NCBI GenBank assembly: GCA_029448655.1
Contig: JACCLO010000001.1
Span: 2,976,001 to 3,040,000, forward strand
Length of the DNA: 64,000 nucleotides
Direction of reading: 5' to 3'
DNA from: Wolfiporia cocos
Taxonomy: Eukaryota; Basidiomycota; Agaricomycetes; Polyporales; Phaeolaceae
The translations under genes and the position numbers were made by a program. Shown here piece after piece: positions 51,346 through 62,281 of this stretch; positions within the stretch are counted from its first letter, which is position 1; each line of letters begins with the position of its first letter. The notes beneath the pieces are model-generated. The model did no database searches and was not told where the DNA came from. It saw nothing but the letters and a program-made list of their open reading frames with translations.

Positions 51346-51771
51346 TCATCATACTGCGTGCTAGACTGGGACTGCCTCTGGTGACTACGCCGTCACTATG
51401 CCTTAGACTCTCTATCTTGGAGTCTACCTAGTCAGCCCATGCGACGTTACCTCGTTGTCAACACCTTCAACGTTAGTAGAAGGGGTTAGGGCATAAACAT
51501 GTACGTATGACACATTCTGTGTCATATTCATGACTCTACTGGGCATAACCCCAGTTGTACTAGTGTATATGGCATGTTCCGACTGACACAAGACTCACTG
51601 AAGGTGAGGGAAGCCCTTACATACCCCTAGCTAGTTGCATAGGGGTAGACATGCTCGTCATTGAGCAGAGGTCGCCTTCTGAGGTACTAACTAAGAAGCA
51701 GAGGTGGGCATCACCAGCATAGAGATCAAGGGGCCAGCTTAGGCCCAAATGACTATCAATAGTCTGAAGTT

Positions 51772-52478
51772 GTTATGGTTATTTTGAATTTTTCAGACGC
51801 TGGCAGAACTCACCATAGGGTGAATACGATACAGGGACTTGTTGCGTAACCAACCCCCTGGCTACTCGTGATTCTACTGGGTGCATCCCCAGTTGTACTA
51901 GCATGAAGGGCACGTTTCATCTTTGGCAGATCCAACTCTGCCACCGTTTCATGTTTATCATTTACTAGCTGATAGATGGCGTTCAACCGCCATCATTCCT
52001 ATCTATTGTCTCGGACATATCACTACATACTTATCAAACGTTTGGTACTATAGCGTAGATAGTAGCGGTGACATCTGGGACAGGCTTGACCCCTAAAAAC
52101 TAACGTAGTATATAAACTCGTGTACTTACTGTCGAGGCTCTTCAGCTCGACCTTGTTGTATAAACAAGAAGTCTTATACTCGTTCTCAAACGTAGGAAAC
52201 TACGTTCAGTATTTCTCCCTCGAGCAATCGAACGACTAAGTCCTCGAAGTGCACATTGACTTCTCGGGCTTAGGCGAGTCTTATATTCTATTCGACTCGC
52301 ACTTGAACAGATTATATCCTCTAACGCGTATTGGATATAAACCGATCTCCTAAGAAGTTCACTTAGGACCCGAAGGCATCTAACGAGTATTTGCCTTGCA
52401 TACGGCGACGTGCCTACGTGCAGAAGAACGATCTATATTCGCGACTCGAATATACGAACGGGTATTCGACCCGTAACA
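51772..52478 (+). repeat. 5' LTR of the Gypsy element (707 bp)
   Basis: Ends are TGTTA and TAACA (5-bp inverted termini). Promoter-like TATATAAA sits at 52109-52116. Downstream is GTCGAG / CTCGAC (52131-52151), a short hairpin that overlaps the 11-mer AGCTCGACCTT (52144-52154). The net length is within 1 bp of the solo copy at 57721-59083 after removing its insertion. Confidence 0.88.
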
Positions 52479-52479
52479 G

Positions 52480-52490
52480 AAGGTCGAGCT
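52480..52490 (+). promoter_or_regulatory. Predicted self-priming primer-binding site
   Basis: AAGGTCGAGCT, starting 2 nt after the 5' LTR end, is the exact reverse complement of AGCTCGACCTT in the LTR at 52144-52154, 35 nt downstream of the TATA box. In Tf1 and related chromoviruses the first 11 nt of the mRNA fold back onto such a site to prime minus-strand synthesis. No tRNA-3'-end complement is apparent at this place. The transcript start is inferred. Confidence 0.6.
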
Positions 52491-52524
52491 TATCACACCC
52501 TCACCTACCACGGTGTAAGGGCAC

Positions 52525-54365
52525 ATGATATTTGGACCAGAATTCCCAGCACGACTGATTGAACTCTTGCCCGAGGACATTCAGGGAGTCTACAGACTCA
52601 ATTAATACGAGTGGACAGACACCATTGGAGCCTTCCGTAACAACGGAGGAATTGTTGTCATCCCCAGAGAAGACAGGGGATTGAAGTGGGTACAAGTATA
52701 CCCCTCCGCAGGAACGACCGCTTGGGAAATAACGCATGAAGTGTTTAAACGATTCGGAGAAATCCCTCTGATGTCAACCGCGACGTTGACCAAAAACGAA
52801 ACCATCAACAGAACCTCCGATGCCAATGGAAATACGAATCAGCCTTCGGGCACCACAGGAATGGCAGGAATTGAGTGCATCGGAGATGATGGGAGAAATC
52901 CTGGAAACTTTACAGGAACAAATAACAGCCAGACCGGAGGACAGGACCCTCCAGGATTTGTATCTGCTTTCACGCAGAGTGGGATTGGGTCTATGGCTGG
53001 AGGAACAAACCTCTTTGGAAACCCCCCACAGGACGCACCCGGAATGGGTAGCGGAGGAAATCCGTCTTGGACTAGCCCAAGCGGAGGAATGGGAATGACA
53101 AACCCAGGAACGTGGCCTTCAGGCCTATTTGGACGAACCTCCGCAGATACAAGCGGAGGAGGATTGGGAGGAAACTTTGGACTCGGAGGAGGAAATGCCC
53201 CCCCTCCTGGAGGACTCGGAGGAGGAACCCCCGTGAACCCCGGAGGAGGAAACCCTGGCGGAAACCCAGGGAACCCCGGAGGAAACCCAGGAAACCCGGG
53301 TGGAGGACACCCAGGAGGAGGAGGACCCCCAGGAGGACCTCCACCACAGAATGCGCCGCCACCTCAACCTCCGGCGCCGAACCCGTACTACCGACCCCCG
53401 ATGCTAAAGATCAATCCCCCTGACGTATTCGATGGGGAACGATCCGACATGCAGAACTTCATAAACCAGTGTAACTCCTGGTTTACAATGTACGAAACGT
53501 CGTTCCAGAATGACGTCCAGAGAGTGATCTTTATCCTCTCTTATATCTTGAATAAGGGGAAAACGGGCCAGTGGAAACAAAATTATCACCGGGTCTATAC
53601 GAACCCCCAGATGAAAAGATTCTTCCCGCCTAGTCTCGCACAATTTGATGCGGACTTCCAGAAAGCCTTCGGAGCCATCAAAGAAGTACAGAAGGCATGG
53701 AAGAAAATCTTGGACGTAGCCCAAGATAGAAAAGACATTGATGACTACATCACCGAATTCAATAACTTGGCCAGGAAGGCCCAGTACGATCGATACAGCG
53801 CGGATGGAAACGCGCTGCTCATAACCCTCTTTGAGAAAGGGTTACCCGAGCATATGACCCGATACATCATCGGTGTTCGGCCGCTACCAGCGACCATCGA
53901 CGAATGGCAGTCTGCTGCCTCATACTACGAAAACACGTACAAGATATTCTTGAAACGCGATAAACCGTTTGTCAAGAAAAAGGCTTGGCAAGCCTCGACC
54001 AGAATAACGGATACACTAGTGCTCCGCAGACAACCACATCAAAAGATCCGAACGCAATGGATGTAGATCAAATGACCACCCAGGAAAGGGATGATCACAT
54101 CAAGAAGGGCAAGTGTTTCACTTGCCATCAGCCAGGGCATATGTCGCAAGACTGCCCAAAGAAACCAAAGAAGCCAGCATGCCCCAGGTGGACTACTCGA
54201 AAGACCAAAGAAGAAGAAGCCGAGCAAGAAGCTCGCATCGAAGAAGTCTCGGAGGAAGAGACTGAGTACATCACCACGAACAGAGCGGTCACGGCGATTA
54301 GAGCCCTGAAAGCCAAGAACCCCGAGCTTCTAGCTCAGCTCGTAGAAGAACAGGATTTTGCCTAG
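52525..54365 (+). pseudogene. Gag of the Gypsy element, broken
   Basis: An ATG at 52525 opens MIFGPEFPARLIELLPEDIQ, then TAA at 52603 interrupts; the same frame continues as WTDTIGAFRNNGGIVVIPRE to an internal Met at 52771. A Gly/Pro/Asn-rich stretch (about 53160-53380) precedes the conserved gag core (DVFDGERSDMQNFINQCNSW ... DYITEFNNLARKAQYD ... LFEKGLPEHM). Near 53975, in AAGAAAAAGGC, the frame shifts by one; the downstream frame carries the zinc knuckle CFTCHQPGHMSQDC (about 54115-54156) and ends at TAG 54363-54365. The nucleocapsid part is thus out of frame with the core. Confidence 0.8.
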
Positions 54366-54832
54366 GAGGGAAGCCCATGGTCTTACCCTCCGAGAAAGCA
54401 GCGCATGTAATTACCTCGTTCGAGAAGAATCGATCCCTCTTCATCCCGGTAATCATGATGCTGGCAAAACCCGTGAAATGCAATGCACTAATCGACTCAG
54501 GAGCAATGTTGAACCTGATCCACAGCAGAGTGGTAGAAAAATACAAGGTGCCCACACAGCCCTTGAAGAACCCGATCATTGTCAAAAACGTCGACGGAAC
54601 AGAAAACAAAGACGGGCGAATAGATCGAGAAGCCACCATACTACTCTGATATCCAAAGACCCAGAAAACAAGGAAAGTCCGATTCCTGGTAGGGTCCATC
54701 GGCACAGAAAATATGATTCTGGGGTATGGATGGCTGAAAGACGAAAACCCCACAATTGACTGGAAAGACCAAACAGTCGATGTACGATCGATACTAGGGG
54801 CAGAAGAAAGAAAACCGGAAACCACGATCTGA

Positions 54833-55249
54833 ATGGATACGGTAGAAATGGTAGTTGCCCCAGAAGGAAAAGTTCCAACACAAGGAACCCAAGAAGCTGC
54901 TGGATACGACCTCTACGCCGCTGAAGAAACTGAGATCCCCGCAGGAGGATGGAAGCTTGTTTCTACAGGAGTGAAGATGAAAATCCCGAAAGGATCATAT
55001 GGGAGGATAGCCGGACGATCGGGTAACACCCTCAAACACGGACTGGTGGTACAAGCCGGAGTCATAGACTCAGACTATCGAGGGGACATTGGAGCCATCA
55101 TCTTCAACTACTCAGGCACAACACACAGGATCATCCTGGGCATGCAAATAGCCCAGATAATATTCGAACGACACCTAACCCCTGACATTGTGGAGGTCGA
55201 AGACCTAGACGAAACGGAACGGGGGGAAAAGAGGTTCGGGTCCACAGAC
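54833..55249 (+). other. dUTPase domain embedded in Gypsy pol
   Basis: All five motifs of the trimeric dUTPase family appear in order (numbered from Met at 54833): motif 1 AGYDLYA (23-29), motif 2 GRIAGRSG (57-64; the usual Pro before Arg is Gly), motif 3 GVIDSDYRG (76-84; the Asp of GVID is the catalytic base in the family), motif 4 [10 protein letters not shown] (102-111; usually GDRIAQ) and motif 5 [10 protein letters not shown] (130-139). The domain lies between protease and RT. It would hydrolyse dUTP to limit uracil in retrotransposon cDNA. A TGA lies just upstream (54830) in the polyprotein frame; the domain itself is uninterrupted. Confidence 0.9.
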
Positions 55250-57720
55250 CAACCGGAAGAAACAGCCCAACGACTCTACACCCCCGAAGAATATGAAGCG
55301 ATTCGACGCTTTGTAAAGAATAACCCTAAACTCATAGGGAAGAAAGGGGAAACACGAAGAAAATTCCGGACGAAGACGCAGATCATCAATGCTGTCAGGA
55401 AGGCATTAACGAAATCCCAAGAATTCGCGCAGAAAACCCCCGAACCAGAAAGAGCAATGGAAGAGATGGTCCCAAAACACCTATTGGATTTCGCCAAGGT
55501 GTTCAGTAAGGAAGCCGCAACGGTGTTTCCCCCTTCGAGACCATGGGACCACACGATTGAATTGAAACCCGACTTCGTGCCGAGAGACTGTAAAGTCTAT
55601 GCGCTATCTCCAAAGGAGCAACAAGCTATGGACGAGTTCCTGAAGGAGAATCTGGCCAAGGGATTCATAGTCCCCTCGAAATCCCTGATGGCATCACCCT
55701 TCTTCTTTGTCCCAAAAAAGGACAACGGCCTACGACCGTGTCAGGACTATCGATACATGAACAAATGGACGATAAAGAACGTCTACCCCCTACCGCTCAT
55801 ATCAGAGCTCTTAGAAAAACTAAAAGGAGCAAAGATCTTCACAAAAATGGACCTTAGAGCGGGGTACAATAACGTCCGAATCAAAGCAGGGGACGAATGG
55901 AAGGCAGCCTTCAAAACAAACCGAGGGTTATATGAACCGACGGTCATGTTCTTCGGTCTATGCAACGTACCAGCGACCTTCCAAGCAATGATGAACGAAA
56001 TCTTAAAAGAAGAAATCCTCGAAGGATGGGTGCTTGTCTACATGAACGACATCCTCATTTTCTCAGACAACGAGAAAACGCACAAGGGACGAGAATGATG
56101 GATTCTCCAGAAGTTAGCAGACAACCATCTCTTCGTGAAACCAGAAAAATGCGCATTTGGCGTCGACCGAGTCGAATTCCTGGGGCTAGTCATCACCCCA
56201 GGAAGTATCCAGATGGATCCGGCAAAACTTAAAGGAATCAAAGAGTGGCCGACACCCCGAAATCTTAAGGAAGTTAGATCCTTCTTAGGATTTGCAAACT
56301 TCTACCGGAAGTTCATAGATCATTACTCGATGCATGCACGGCCCCTGGTAGACCTCACAAAAACGGTCACAGGAACAGGATTCCAATGGATGGATAAAGA
56401 ACAAAAGGCATTCGAATTCATGAAAAAGGCGTTTACGACAGCACCAATACTAGGGACGCCGGATAAGGAAAAATCGTTCATCCTTGAAACAGATGCATCT
56501 CAGTATGCCACAGGAGCAGTGCTGAAACAGACAGACGAAATAGGGCGCGAATGATCGGTGGGATATCTCTCACAATCCCTGACATCAGCAGAGCGGAACT
56601 ATGAAATCTATGATCGCAAACTACTCGGAATCGTCCGTGCGCTAGAAGAATGGCGGCACTTGTTAGAAGGAGCACCGCATCGGATCTTGATCCGAAGCGA
56701 TCATCAGAACCTGACGTATTGGAGAAGCCCAAAGCGCCTAAATCGGCGACAAGCGAGATGGCATCTATTCCTTTCACAATTCGACCTGAAACTGCAGCAC
56801 GTCCCTGGAAAGAAACTAGTCATGGCCGATACACTTTCCAGGTTGTACCACCTTAACGAAAGTCAAGAAGACAACGAGGGAATAACCATGATCCCAGACG
56901 AACTCGTAATCCATGCAATTCAGATCTTGATCATTGATCGAATTAAAAATACTGAGGATCGAGATGAATCTGCGGAACAGGCAATCCGCGCCCTGGAAAA
57001 CAAGGGCGGATTCCCCTCAGGAACCACGGCGGACGACTGGCAGCAAACAGAAGGAGTGCTGCTCTACAAGGGCAGGATGTACGTACCAAAAGACGAGGGC
57101 CTCCGACGGGATGTCATCTCCAAATATCATGATTTGATCCCAGCTGGACACCCTGGGATCTGGGGAACGACAATAAAGGTCAAGACCCACTTCTGGTGGC
57201 CCGACATGGGAACAACGATAGTGGAATATGTTCGGGGTTGTGCAATCTGTCAACAGATGAAACCTGATCGGAACCCGATAAAGCCTCTGCTACAACCAAT
57301 ACCCACACGAGAAGATGCCCTCCCCTTCTCACAATGTTCAGTCGATTTTGTCACCGATCTGCCGAAAGTCGGAAAATATGATTCAATGATGGTGATCGTC
57401 GACCATGGCCTATCCAAAGCGATCTCTCTCACCCCATGTGACAAACGATTACAAGCGAAGGGGCGGCAGAAATATTCCATCGAAAAATCTACTCAAAATA
57501 TGGTATTCCCCGAAAGATCATCTCAGACAGGGGACCACAGTTTGCATCAAAACTCTTCAAAGAATTATGCAAGCTGCAGGGAACGGAATCGGCGATGAGT
57601 ACGGCGTACCACCCACAGACCGACGGACAAACGGAAAGAATGAATCAACAGATCGAAGTGTACCTTCGTATCTATTGCATGAACGACCCTTTCCAATGGG
57701 TACAATGACTACCTGACGTC

Positions 57721-59083
57721 TGCTACGGTCATTTCGATTTTTCAAATGCTGGCAGAACTCACCATAGGGTGAATACGATACAGGGACTTGTTGCGCAACC
57801 AACCCCCTGGCTATTCGTGATTCTACTGGGCTAACCCCAAGTGTACTAGCAAATAGGGCGTGTTCCAACTCTGACAGATCCAACTCTGTCCTCGTTTCAT
57901 GTTTATCATTCACTAGCTGATAGATGGTGTTCAACCGCCATCATTCCCATCTATCGTCTCGGATATATCACTACATACTTATCAAACGTTTGGTACTATA
58001 GCGTAGATAGTAGCGGTGACATCTGGGATGGACTTGACCCCTAAAACCTAGCGCAGTATATAAACTCATGTACTTACTGTCGAAGCTCTTCAGCTCGACC
58101 TTGTTGTACAAACAAGAAGTCTTATACTCGTTCTCAAACGTAGGAAACTACGCTCAGTATTTCTCACTCGAGCAACCGAACGACTAAGTCCTCAAAGTGC
58201 ACATTGACTTCTCGGACTTAGGCGAGTCTTATATTCTATCAGACTCGCACTTGAACAGATTATATCCTCTAACGCGCATTGGATATTAACCGATCTCCTA
58301 AGGACTTCACTTAGGACCCGAAGGCATCTAACGAGTATTTGCCTTGCATACTGTCACGGTAACCACCGTGCCACCCGCCCCAGCGGGGAACCCCTATATC
58401 CGCCCTATCACTAACGCCTATAGCCCCCCACCCTCCTAATGGCGGAGAACAAGAAGGCACTCCTATTGAGGAGCCCTGCCGTATTGCCTGAGGTACCGAC
58501 CCATAAGTGTACCGGTACGCCCTCAGACTAGCAAGTAAAGGAGTAAGAGACAAGGTGGATGCAATGAATAGAGGCCCCCACACCCAAGTAGGACGTAGCA
58601 GGCTTTGTCGTCTAAGACCCTGCATGCAAGAACAAGTTGGCAGACGGTATATGAAAGGTTGCCAGGGGACGCGCCCCCAACGACGAGAAGATAAGTTCTG
58701 AGGAGTACCTCAGAACGCTACCTAGTATATATACATGTGGACGCTATCTACTGTAGCTACAAGACCTGCCCTAATGGCATGGTCTGTGCACACTGTGACT
58801 ACGCTGCACATGACTGGTAACAAACGTGACTCCAGTGACGTACCACGTGACCTAAGTAAGAGATAAGATAGGGGAAGCTTATCTATTTCCCATACACGTG
58901 CAGTCCCGGGCGGCTAGGTATAACGTAGCGAATGTCTGTGGATAAGCGTGAGCCAAGGGTGAGACAAAAGAATAATCCCTTTATTCCGGGATTTCTTGTG
59001 ACACATACGGCAACGCGCCTACGTGCAGAAGAACGATCTATATTTGCGATTCGAATATACGAACGGGTATTCGACCCGTAACA
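57721..59083 (+). mobile_element. Solo LTR of the same Gypsy family, inserted in integrase
   Basis: It starts TGCTACGG and ends CCGTAACA; the 5-bp duplications ACGTC (57716-57720 and 59084-59088) flank it. Removing it with one duplication restores WLPDV-EFAHNTR of integrase. After subtracting the nested 652-bp LTR and its duplication it is 706 bp, against 707 bp for the 5' LTR. Confidence 0.9.
58352..59003 (-). mobile_element. Second-family solo LTR (e), nested in the Gypsy solo LTR
   Basis: The plus-strand ends are TGTCACGG and TTGTGACA (inverted TGTCAC/GTGACA), and CATAC is duplicated at 58347-58351 and 59004-59008. Signals point to minus-strand transcription: CATGTATATATA read leftward from 58737, then the 9-bp hairpin GTTCTGAGG / CCTCAGAAC (58695-58716). 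No internal coding part remains, so it is a solo LTR of 652 bp. Confidence 0.88.
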
Positions 59084-59750
59084 ACGTCGAATTTGCGCAC
59101 AACACCAGACAAACCGAAAACCGGCCCGCGCCACTCGAAATAATCCTAGGTTATGTCCCGAGAGGATTCCCAGACTATGACAGAGTAGGGAATGTCCCAG
59201 CAGCAGTTGATAGGATCAAGAAAATCAAAGAGGCGCGAAAGATGGCATTCATCGCACATGAACTAGCCCAGAAAAGAATGGCGGGATGTTTCCTCCGAGA
59301 ATTACCCAAGCTTGAGAAAGGGGACAAGGTCTGGCTTGATGCAAAGAACTTGACGATACCCTATGAATCAAACAAGTTAGCACCAAAAAGAGAAGGACCC
59401 TTCACCATCACGGAAAAGATGGGGCCCACAACCTACCGGCTACAGCTACCGACGAGCTGGAGGATTCACCCTGTCTTCCACGCCGCATTATTGAAACCAT
59501 TCAAGGAAACAAGGGTGCACGGACCCAATTATCTACGGCCGCCACCTGATATCATCAAGGGACAAGAGGAGTACGAAGTCGAAGCCATCCTGGCTGACAG
59601 ATGGCGAGGAAAGAAGTTCGTCAAATGGAAAGGCTATGCCACGGCCGACAACTCATGGGAAGACGAGGGAAATTCCAAGGAGCTGATAAAAGACTACCAC
59701 AGAATGCGAGTCAGAACAACCCTGACACTCGAAAACCGTACAGTCATAGT

Positions 59751-60152
59751 ATGTCGATGACTCGCCACCAGCTCCCCCGCCGCACCACGACCCCCGGTGA
59801 CACAGACCGGCGAGAAGGTCGGCTGAGAGGTACACCACCGAGGAGGTATTCCCCTCAACACCTGCAGATCAGACACGCCCTCCTCTGGTACAGGGCCGAG
59901 GGACCTTTTGCTGGCCGAGCCGATGGCTGGTTGGCCCTCTTCGACATCGTGCAGGACCTCACCCACGTATACAGCTCGTACCAGAACATCACCGAGGACC
60001 TCGTCCGAATGGAGGGGCAGATCAGAGCACAGAGGGAGGGACTCGAACTACTCACCGACCGACTTATCGACAGACTGGCTGCCACTACAACAGCCCGACT
60101 ACAACATGCACTCAACGACTTCGAGGATCGAGAGCACGTTACTCCCAATTGA
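59751..60152 (+). CDS. Accessory ORF A of the Gypsy element (133 aa)
   Basis: The ATG at 59751 overlaps the pol stop by 10 nt (ATGTCGATGA). The product starts MSMTRHQLPRRTTTPGDTD, is basic at the N-terminus and becomes helical with probable coiled coil (ITEDLVRMEGQIRAQREGLE, LLTDRLIDRLAATTTARL). It shows no similarity to known pol or env domains that I can recognise, no signal peptide and no membrane helix. It is intact, while gag and pol carry many lesions. Confidence 0.6.
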   Translation: MSMTRHQLPRRTTTPGDTDRREGRLRGTPPRRYSPQHLQIRHALLWYRAEGPFAGRADGWLALFDIVQDLTHVYSSYQNITEDLVRMEGQIRAQREGLELLTDRLIDRLAATTTARLQHALNDFEDREHVTPN

Positions 60153-60159
60153 CCCGAAT

Positions 60160-60855
60160 ATGTACCACGACCCGCCCGCTTTTTCACAGCCGACGAACGA
60201 CGCCGAGTTGCACGGCCGTTTGATTTTATGGAACGCGATCGGGTATTATTTCCATTGCCTACCAAAACTCAGAGGGCCCACCGAACAGGAGTTAGAGACC
60301 CGATGCCACGTATTCCTGGTATGGGAAGCGACGGGAGACGTGAACCACCTGCACGCCCGACGGGCCCTAGGGCTACCCCAGCAAGACAGCGAAGAGCGAA
60401 TGGCACGCCGCCTATTCGACGATCTCCTTCGGTGCAGAGCATTACCTGCAAGGAGTTTGAGCGAGGTGCGAGGGAGCACGAACGAGACACCGCCTCCTTA
60501 CCCACATGGGCGGCACGGAACCTACACTGAGCCGCACACCACTGGAGGTATCAACACAACGAATACCTTTGAGACATCCCTTCACTACGAGTACCAGCGA
60601 GGCCTTCGCCAGAACAACCCTGTCGGCAATGTGGCTCCGCTAGCCACTGGATCCTCGACTGCCCTGACTATATTTGCAGAGCTTGTGGGCTCAATCAACC
60701 AGGTCATCGACAGAATGTATGCCGCCAACACTTCATATGGCGAACTCCTACGACCCCGTCCCTTAGCGGGAACGGTGACATCTACAACGAACAGGACACC
60801 GAGGCCCTCTGAAGGAGGGAGCTTGGAGAATTCATCGAGGACGACGAATGCTTAG
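60160..60855 (+). CDS. Accessory ORF B of the Gypsy element (231 aa)
   Basis: The ATG at 60160 lies 7 nt after the ORF A stop. The N-terminal half is helical (LHGRLILWNAIGYYFHCLP, ELETRCHVFLVWEATGDVNH, RMARRLFDDLLRCRALP); a Pro/Thr/Gly-rich linker follows, then a helix (TIFAELVGSINQVIDRMYAA). Its TAG stop overlaps the purine-rich tract before the 3' LTR. No known domain recognised. Placement suggests an accessory structural or regulatory protein of this retrotransposon lineage. Confidence 0.6.
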   Translation: MYHDPPAFSQPTNDAELHGRLILWNAIGYYFHCLPKLRGPTEQELETRCHVFLVWEATGDVNHLHARRALGLPQQDSEERMARRLFDDLLRCRALPARSLSEVRGSTNETPPPYPHGRHGTYTEPHTTGGINTTNTFETSLHYEYQRGLRQNNPVGNVAPLATGSSTALTIFAELVGSINQVIDRMYAANTSYGELLRPRPLAGTVTSTTNRTPRPSEGGSLENSSRTTNA

Positions 60856-60866
60856 GGAGGAGCTGA
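60851..60866 (+). promoter_or_regulatory. Polypurine tract before the 3' LTR
   Basis: CTTAGGGAGGAGCTGA immediately precedes the LTR start TGTTACGG. A purine-rich run at this position primes plus-strand synthesis in LTR retrotransposons. It identifies 60867 as the 3' LTR rather than another solo insertion. Confidence 0.6.
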
Positions 60867-62281
60867 TGTTACGGATATTCCGATTTTTAAATATTGACAG
60901 AACTCACCATCGGGCGAATACGACACAGGGACTTGTTGCACAACCAACTCCCCTGGCTACTCGTGACTCTACTGGGCGCATCCTCAGTTGTACTAATGTA
61001 TAGGGCGTGTTTCACCTTTGACAGATCCAACTCTGTCCCCGTTTCGTGGATATCATTTACTAGCTGATAGATGGCGTTCAACCGCCATCAACATTCCGGT
61101 CAAGGATAAATAAAGTTGTGCAGCCTTCCCCCCTGGTCTATTGACCTCCATACTTGCGCTTTAGGCATATTGCAAGGGGCGCTAACGCCTCCCAAAAGTT
61201 AGCGCGTCACGTGACCTCAATTCAGTAGGTCACGTGACTTACTAACTTCTCAGATTAGATAGCGGCACCAGGTACCATCACAGGCACCTTGTCAGGTGAC
61301 ACTATCTATCCAATCTAAGCCTAGACGTTACTAGGCACCATAAATACATCATTAGTGACATCATTAGCCTGGACTCAACCTGGCATCGTCATTACTGACA
61401 TCATAGTGACCTCATACGGTCATTACCAATCCAAGTGAGCTATCTTTAGGGTAGCACACCATTATGACACCATATGTCACCTTTGGGCTTACTCAGCCTA
61501 CTATGCACAGACCACCTTAGTTTAGGGCGGTCTTAGCTACCAATAGTGTACATGCTATCTCATGTATATAAATACAAAGGCGTCTAGGGCTTATTCCCTA
61601 GACTCAACAATCTAAGCATTCAGTCATGAGTGTTAGGGGCGTTTCCCTTTTCCTATCCTACTCCTTTGCTGTATGAGACTATGCGCTACAAGACCTTTCC
61701 AGTTGGATTGGTCCCTCTTAGACGACTAGGACTTGTATTCTAGGTCGTCACTAGGACTTTGCGCCCTTCGGCATTGGGCGTCACAGGGTTGTGACAATTC
61801 CTATCTATCGTTTTGGATATATCACTCCATACTCATCAAACGTTTGGAACTATAGCGTAGATAGTATCGGTGACATCTGGGACGGACTTGACCCCTGAAA
61901 CCTAACGTAGTATATAAACCCATGTACTTACTGTCAAGGCTCTTCAGCTCGACCTTGTTGTACAAACAAGAAGTCTTATACTCATTCTCAAACGTAGGAA
62001 ACTACGCTCAGCATTTCTTGCTCGAGCAACCGAACGACTAAGTCCTCGAAGTGCACATTGACTTCTTGGACTTAGGCGAGTCTTATATTCTATCAGACTT
62101 GCACCTGAACAGATTATATCCTCTAACGCGTATTGGATATTTACCGATCTCCTAGGAAAGCATCTCTAGGACTTGAAGGCATCTAACGAGTATTTGCCTT
62201 GCATACGGCACTCCGCCTATGTGCAGAAGAATGATCTATATTCGCGACTCGAATATACAAACGGGTATCCGACCCGTAACA
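60867..62281 (+). repeat. 3' LTR of the Gypsy element, interrupted
   Basis: It starts TGTTACGGATATTCCG and ends GACCCGTAACA. Between CCGCCATCA (61090) and ATTCCTATCTATCG (61797) lies about 700 bp of foreign DNA that carries second-family LTR signals. The TATATAAA box and CAGCTCGACCTTG motif are kept (61910-61960). Many substitutions separate it from the 5' LTR. Confidence 0.85.
61093..61796 (+). mobile_element. Second-family solo LTR (d), nested in the Gypsy 3' LTR
   Basis: It contains CACGTGAC boxes (61207, 61232), GCACAGACC (61506), TTTAGGGC (61521), CATGTATATAAA (61561) and a perfect 8-bp hairpin GTCTAGGG / CCCTAGAC (61582-61603), and ends GTGACA (61796). The left end (TCAACATTCCGG) is diverged from the expected TGTCACAAGAAATCCCGG, so the border and target duplication could not be fixed. 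Confidence 0.7.

Follow-up and report, generated by a model that had tools for sequence, protein, structure and literature searches.

A dUTPase domain between the protease and reverse transcriptase of chromodomain Ty3/Gypsy retrotransposons in the Wolfiporia cocos genome

Within the 64,000-nucleotide stretch of Wolfiporia cocos DNA analysed here (the window; contig JACCLO010000001.1, positions 2,976,001 to 3,040,000), a segment resembling a dUTPase gene lies inside the pol gene of a retrotransposon, which raises the question of what such a domain does there and how it arrived. All window features described below lie on the forward (+) strand. An open frame at 54833-56098 matched the Pfam dUTPase profile PF00692 at its residues 12-138 (54866-55246; 124.7 bits, E 2.5e-36, above the curated cut-off of 22 bits) and, further downstream, the profile RVT_1. 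The five dUTPase motifs occurred in order, the catalytic Asp of motif 3 included, with variants in motifs 2, 4 and 5. A phmmer search of the PDB with the window dUTPase returned 71 distinct sequences at E<=1e-5 (best E 2.9e-37), and most of the 60 matches listed were named dUTPase or a synonym. An AlphaFold2 model of the domain, built from 37 aligned sequences, had a mean pLDDT of 92.8; its best Foldseek match was a plant dUTPase (E 3.9e-15), and the 50 listed among 254 PDB matches at E<=0.001 were all dUTPases. By sequence and modelled fold, 54866-55246 encodes a dUTPase domain of the trimer-type family (PF00692). The preliminary description had placed a dUTPase with five motifs between protease and reverse transcriptase, and the profile search upheld it, with a frame containing LIDSGA just upstream and RVT_1 after.

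The segment belongs to a dead copy of a Ty3/Gypsy chromodomain retrotransposon, a member of one family (family B) of this genome. The death of the copy shows in premature stops in pol, in a broken integrase frame and in a nested solo LTR that is flanked by a duplication of 5 bp. The 5' LTR, of family B type (51771-52478), was 98.7% identical over 708 bp to the LTR of another copy, L032. It was followed by gag, whose capsid part (52606-54066) gave weak matches to DUF4939, Ty3_capsid and Retrotrans_gag (E 3.1e-6 to 1.4e-4, under the curated cut-offs) and whose C-terminal frame (53964-54365) contained a zinc knuckle (PF00098, E 2.9e-5). The protease part of pol (54305-54832), with in-frame stops, carried the LIDSGA motif, weak retroviral protease matches and a continuous tblastn match to the intact pol of copy L030. 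Beyond the dUTPase domain came the first part of the reverse transcriptase (55709-56086; PF00078, E 3.7e-21), in a frame that stops at 56098, then RNase H (56387-56782; PF17919, PF17917), spanning a stop at 56554, and the integrase zinc-binding domain (57092-57265; PF17921, E 1.2e-18). Nested in the integrase gene was a solo LTR, likewise from family B (57721-59083; LTR positions 1-633 and 629-708), with ACGTC on either flank and its own interruption of about 0.65 kb (~58352-59003). The C-terminal part of the integrase (59084-59760) contained SH3_Tf2-1 at ~59320-59502 (PF24626, E 1.3e-19) and, in agreement with the initial assignment to a chromodomain Gypsy element, a chromodomain at ~59572-59703 (PF00385, E 3.3e-9). 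The last features were the decayed remains of an overlapping third ORF for a zinc-knuckle protein (59598-60809; tblastn of the L030 ORF, 85.6% identity) and the 3' LTR (60867-62281), in which LTR positions 1-225 (85.8% identity) and 225-708 (90.9%) were separated by an insert of about 0.7 kb (~61091-61796). The window pieces and the intact pol of L030 gave the order protease, reverse transcriptase, RNase H and integrase, with the chromodomain at the integrase C-terminus.

Over 54305-57463 the pol frame of the window copy aligned to that of L030 with no shift of frame, but it contains stops. Because this frame continues upstream to 54305, the ATG at 54833 was rejected as a gene start; it is simply the codon at which the decayed frame opens again after a stop. 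The internal part of the element (52479-57720 plus 59084-60866) was 88% identical to L032. Since the 5' LTR is far nearer to L032 than the rest of the window element is (98.7% versus 86-91%), and since the outer flanks (GAAGT and ATGCC) lack the target duplication that accompanies the LTRs of some other copies, an exchange of the 5' LTR, through recombination or conversion, is possible. Changes from CpG to TpG or CpA in the window copy exceeded the reverse by approximately 1.7-1.9 fold in comparisons with three copies (94:54, 102:57 and 108:58), which is at most suggestive of decay by RIP or methylation.

The genome (64.4 Mb, 76 contigs) was searched with PF00692, a Chlorella dUTPase fragment and the window dUTPase, which gave 1428, 1406 and 1424 first-look candidates, respectively, and at least 150 scored dUTPase matches each. 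About 31 of the 150 matches listed for the window dUTPase (counted from the table) sat in open frames of at least 1690 aa. When canonical motif 4 (GDRIAQL and near variants) was searched for as a DNA pattern, 142 places matched exactly, compared to none for a reversed control. Six motif-4 places were read (L045-L050): an element-type dUTPase was present in L045, L046, L048 (decayed) and L050, L047 was the host gene, and L049 gave no dUTPase reading. Many of the motif-4 matches listed lay, by eye, no more than a few hundred kb from an end of a large contig, and these copies are possibly subtelomeric.

The copies fell into families that carry the domain at three positions: ahead of the protease, between it and the reverse transcriptase, and after the chromodomain. 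The dUTPase precedes the protease in family A (L022, 2254-aa frame: dUTPase 821-944, protease 979-1079, reverse transcriptase 1221-1382) and family C (L035, 2347-aa frame: 864-989, 1021-1125 and 1289-1450), and these two frames gave no chromodomain match at E<=0.001. The intact 1735-aa pol of family B (L030) has the protease motif at residue 63, the dUTPase at 189-315, the reverse transcriptase at 470-630 and the chromodomain at 1302-1351; in family D (L041; 1704-aa frames) the protease motif, dUTPase and reverse transcriptase likewise share one frame. Family E (L045, L046) has a chromodomain and then a dUTPase near the frame end, and its reverse transcriptase (L051) was found on the dUTPase strand, ~2.5-3.4 kb upstream of the domain, in separate readings that do not imply one ORF. 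Family F (L050), read from the dUTPase onward, has a stop soon after it. Dozens of small contigs (between C19 and C73) carried a family B dUTPase of equal score, mostly in a 1151-aa frame and at recurring places, as if a tandem array (rDNA?) held an element.

Motifs were compared at 36 distinct places (18 in family B, 7 in A, 7 in C and 4 in D), which were chosen by dUTPase score, a choice that favours intact motifs and biases dUTPase pN downward. The Asp and Tyr of motif 3, the Arg-Ser of motif 2 and the Gln of motif 4 were invariant in all 36. Families A and C were near-canonical, with APRSGL in motif 2 and GDRIAQ or KDRIAQ in motif 4; family D had ASRSGL and GMRIAQ. In family B, motif 2 was AGRSGN and motif 5 RGEKGFGST at every sampled place (18/18), and motif 4 was GMRIAQ at 17, the remaining one having GTRIAQ, with Thr for Met. 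The window copy has GMQIAQ in motif 4 and RGEKRFGST in motif 5, and only the change of GMR to GMQ and the Arg before FGST were private to it among the sampled family B places. GMRIAQ was also present in a viral-metagenome dUTPase (P0087). Both family B motifs are unusual, and no tested enzyme with exactly AGRSGN in motif 2 and GMRIAQ in motif 4 was seen.

In this sample biased by dUTPase score, dUTPase codons were under strong purifying selection in the three best-sampled families (pN/pS 0.02-0.07). Pooled over distinct sequences, dUTPase pN/pS was 0.069 in family B (18 sequences), 0.057 in A (7), 0.018 in C (7) and 0.191 in D (3, with few differences); the corresponding values were 0.054, 0.281, 0.011 and 0.130 for the reverse transcriptase and 0.033, 0.022, 0.046 and 0.054 for the protease. 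Between the window copy and its nearest family B copy, dN/dS was 0.10 for the dUTPase and 0.04 for both the reverse transcriptase and the protease. The domain had initially been described as either a diverged enzyme or a decayed copy. The window copy is indeed dead, but decay does not explain the Gly of motif 2 and the Met of motif 4, because all or nearly all sampled family B copies share them and selection on the dUTPase of these copies is purifying. Some of the dUTPase-bearing insertions are recent: LTR pairs were found in 17 of 20 large loci, and 10 of these pairs, in families A, B and C, were 100% identical. Matching flanks of 4-5 bp stood beside identical pairs in L022, L023 and L027 (A), L030 and L032 (B) and L036, L037 and L039 (C), although matches of only 4 bp (L022, L027, L030) can arise by chance.

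Relatives of the element were sought with the reverse transcriptase-integrase part of L030, which scored 7975 proteins, 5725 of them at E<=1e-30. Among the 120 matches listed, two carried a dUTPase, P0213 (with a chromodomain) and P0249 (Phanerochaete sordida, incomplete), in both cases between protease and reverse transcriptase. A protease motif preceded the reverse transcriptase in 64 of the 120, many of which are incomplete upstream, and these 64 included the two carriers; the protease-reverse transcriptase distance was 159-323 residues in the 62 without a dUTPase versus 403-407 in the two with one. On a reverse transcriptase-RNase H tree of 58 author-chosen rows out of 128 usable ones, the dUTPase label changed 6 times, at least 4 of them forced by well-supported branches, a count in which gains and losses are indistinguishable. 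One clade of the 7 ingroup carriers was rejected (p-AU 7e-9); the tree gave a long-branch warning at P0007 and P0236, neither of which is among the 7. The nearest non-carriers were P0140 (Lyophyllum; two RNase H stretches), beside families A and C, and P0182, beside P0249. Because this tree rejected one carrier clade, repeated acquisition was favoured, and with about even confidence we suggest that Ty3/Gypsy elements of this genome gained a dUTPase several times independently and fixed it at three polyprotein places. If true, this would point to uracil in cDNA as a general and strong pressure on fungal retroelements.

A single ancient capture, after which the domain was lost many times and shifted its place within pol, is a possible explanation that we hold tentatively. 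In the dUTPase tree families B and D formed one clade (99/99) and A and C another (100/99). The tree leaves room for a single capture: one clade of the element-borne dUTPases of this genome was not rejected (p-AU 0.131, or 0.157 with P0213 and P0249 added), and p-AU ranged from 0.131 to 0.204 in four tests, so that the short alignment of 138 columns does not separate one capture from many. The rejected carrier clade, with its 6 changes of label, and the three different pol positions argue against a single capture and for the repeated gain proposed above. The dUTPases of families B and D, both with the order protease, dUTPase and reverse transcriptase, form a clade together with that of a Wolfiporia cocos protein; a clade of elements with this order is what the preliminary description had named as support for a lineage-specific capture.

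As to function, it is highly probable that 54866-55246 represents the dUTPase domain carried by the Pol of a family B chromodomain Ty3/Gypsy element and that it works as a dUTP pyrophosphatase, lowering dUTP during cDNA synthesis; we infer its activity, its trimeric state, its location in the particle and its benefit to transposition. Live copies would produce the dUTPase as part of Pol, flanked by the protease and the reverse transcriptase, and the domain would probably act within or close to the particle as a Mg-dependent enzyme made of three subunits. If dUTP is kept low during synthesis of the element's cDNA, that cDNA could contain less uracil, and the host's uracil-excision repair would have less to cut. 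It is unlikely that the domain instead persists because of a function other than catalysis, for example in nucleic-acid binding or in Pol assembly driven by trimer formation, and hydrolyses dUTP poorly. Such a role would accord with the unusual motifs 2 and 4 of family B, and a retroviral dUTPase-like protein, that of BIV, is described as having no detectable activity in the available part of PMC4531489. However, motif 3 kept its Asp and Tyr at every sampled place in families A-D, families A and C are near-canonical in motifs 2 and 4, and the predicted model fits active enzymes, all of which favour dUTP hydrolysis.

The idea that a dUTPase serves replication where cellular dUTPase is low, which the preliminary description had raised for this element, comes from retroviruses (PMC4531489, in part; cited also in PMC2864245). 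By its sequence the fungus itself encodes a dUTPase, in a gene that is split by introns and distinct from the element copies (L047; contig C45, ~2396138-2396770, in several exon pieces, with APRSGL, GVIDADYRG, GDRIAQL and GGFGSTG), and given this gene the need for a second source of dUTPase is not obvious. That the element's domain was recently captured from this gene is very improbable. Holding families B and D together with the host gene was not rejected (p-AU 0.122) on the short, 138-column alignment, yet the free trees placed the host gene with the cellular dUTPases (95/92; 96/86 in the second tree) and B and D in their own clade, so capture of the host gene was not favoured. The view that the domain is a functionless passenger, a gene fragment captured in one chimeric dead copy, draws on the death of the window copy and is already contradicted by the at least 150 scored copies, which rule out a one-off chimera, by the purifying selection and by the young insertions, so that it is scarcely credible.

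A further ORF of 411 aa overlaps the final 1.2 kb of pol in family B, in the -1 frame (L030:7377-8609, and likewise in seven more full copies), and it looks like a real overlapping gene. It was open for 410-411 aa in 6 of the 8 full copies. When synonymous codons were resampled with the pol protein kept, none of 2000 trials left the -1 frame open for 400 aa, compared to 1 of 2000 in the reverse test. Over the last 1100 nt of the 8 copies, pN/pS was 0.22 in the third-ORF frame, 0.73 in the pol frame and 1.92 in the remaining frame. CCHC-like zinc knuckles lay at its end (a weak Pfam match), and no relatives were found among the proteins searched, apart from one diverged partial match in L014.

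Among known systems, betaretroviruses have the dUTPase ahead of the protease. Families A and C share this order of dUTPase, protease and reverse transcriptase, a likeness of gene order. Within Wolfiporia cocos, protein P0015 (224 aa) has a dUTPase 77% identical to that of the window and shares GRSGN in motif 2 and GMRIAQ in motif 4. Two fragments labelled Anoxybacillus (P0014) and Novosphingobium (P0018) were 91% identical to the window dUTPase; they lie on contigs of 622 and 429 bp and are probably fungal contamination of bacterial assemblies. A fusion of NC with dUTPase is described for betaretroviruses in the available part of PMC4531489. Fungal LTR elements with a dUTPase include Metaviridae of Phanerochaete chrysosporium (Novikova and Blinov 2008) and Tmt1 of Tuber (Riccioni et al. 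2008), both as cited in the accessible portion of PMC2864245, and dUTPase is among the TE-related domains enriched in Entomophthora muscae, according to the excerpted text of PMC11105155; no matching mention was found in PMC3248453. The order protease, dUTPase and reverse transcriptase is reported, again from partial texts, for planarian elements (PMC6431247) and for Juno, Vesta and TelKA of bdelloid rotifers (PMC5408684), which share the order of the window element but lack a chromodomain and live in an animal host.

The closest parallel is in Postia placenta, whose Gypsy elements, as far as the available part of PMC2864245 (Novikova et al. 2010) describes them, carry a dUTPase at either the N- or the C-terminal end of Pol, or else between protease and reverse transcriptase, from sources that seem independent. 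These three positions match the three seen here, the families being compared by description only, and PosPlaTy3-5 is, like the window family, a basidiomycete Gypsy element with its dUTPase between protease and reverse transcriptase. Because such elements are already published there, the architecture is of a known kind, and with the rotifer and planarian examples this corrects the preliminary view that the placement is unusual. Compared to the Postia placenta elements, the present analysis adds copy number, selection, a reverse transcriptase tree and the host gene: a single genome with recent and abundant elements and constrained dUTPases at three positions, alongside dUTPase-free relatives in other fungi. 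The question of why retroelements carry a dUTPase thereby becomes testable in a fungus without a retrovirus.
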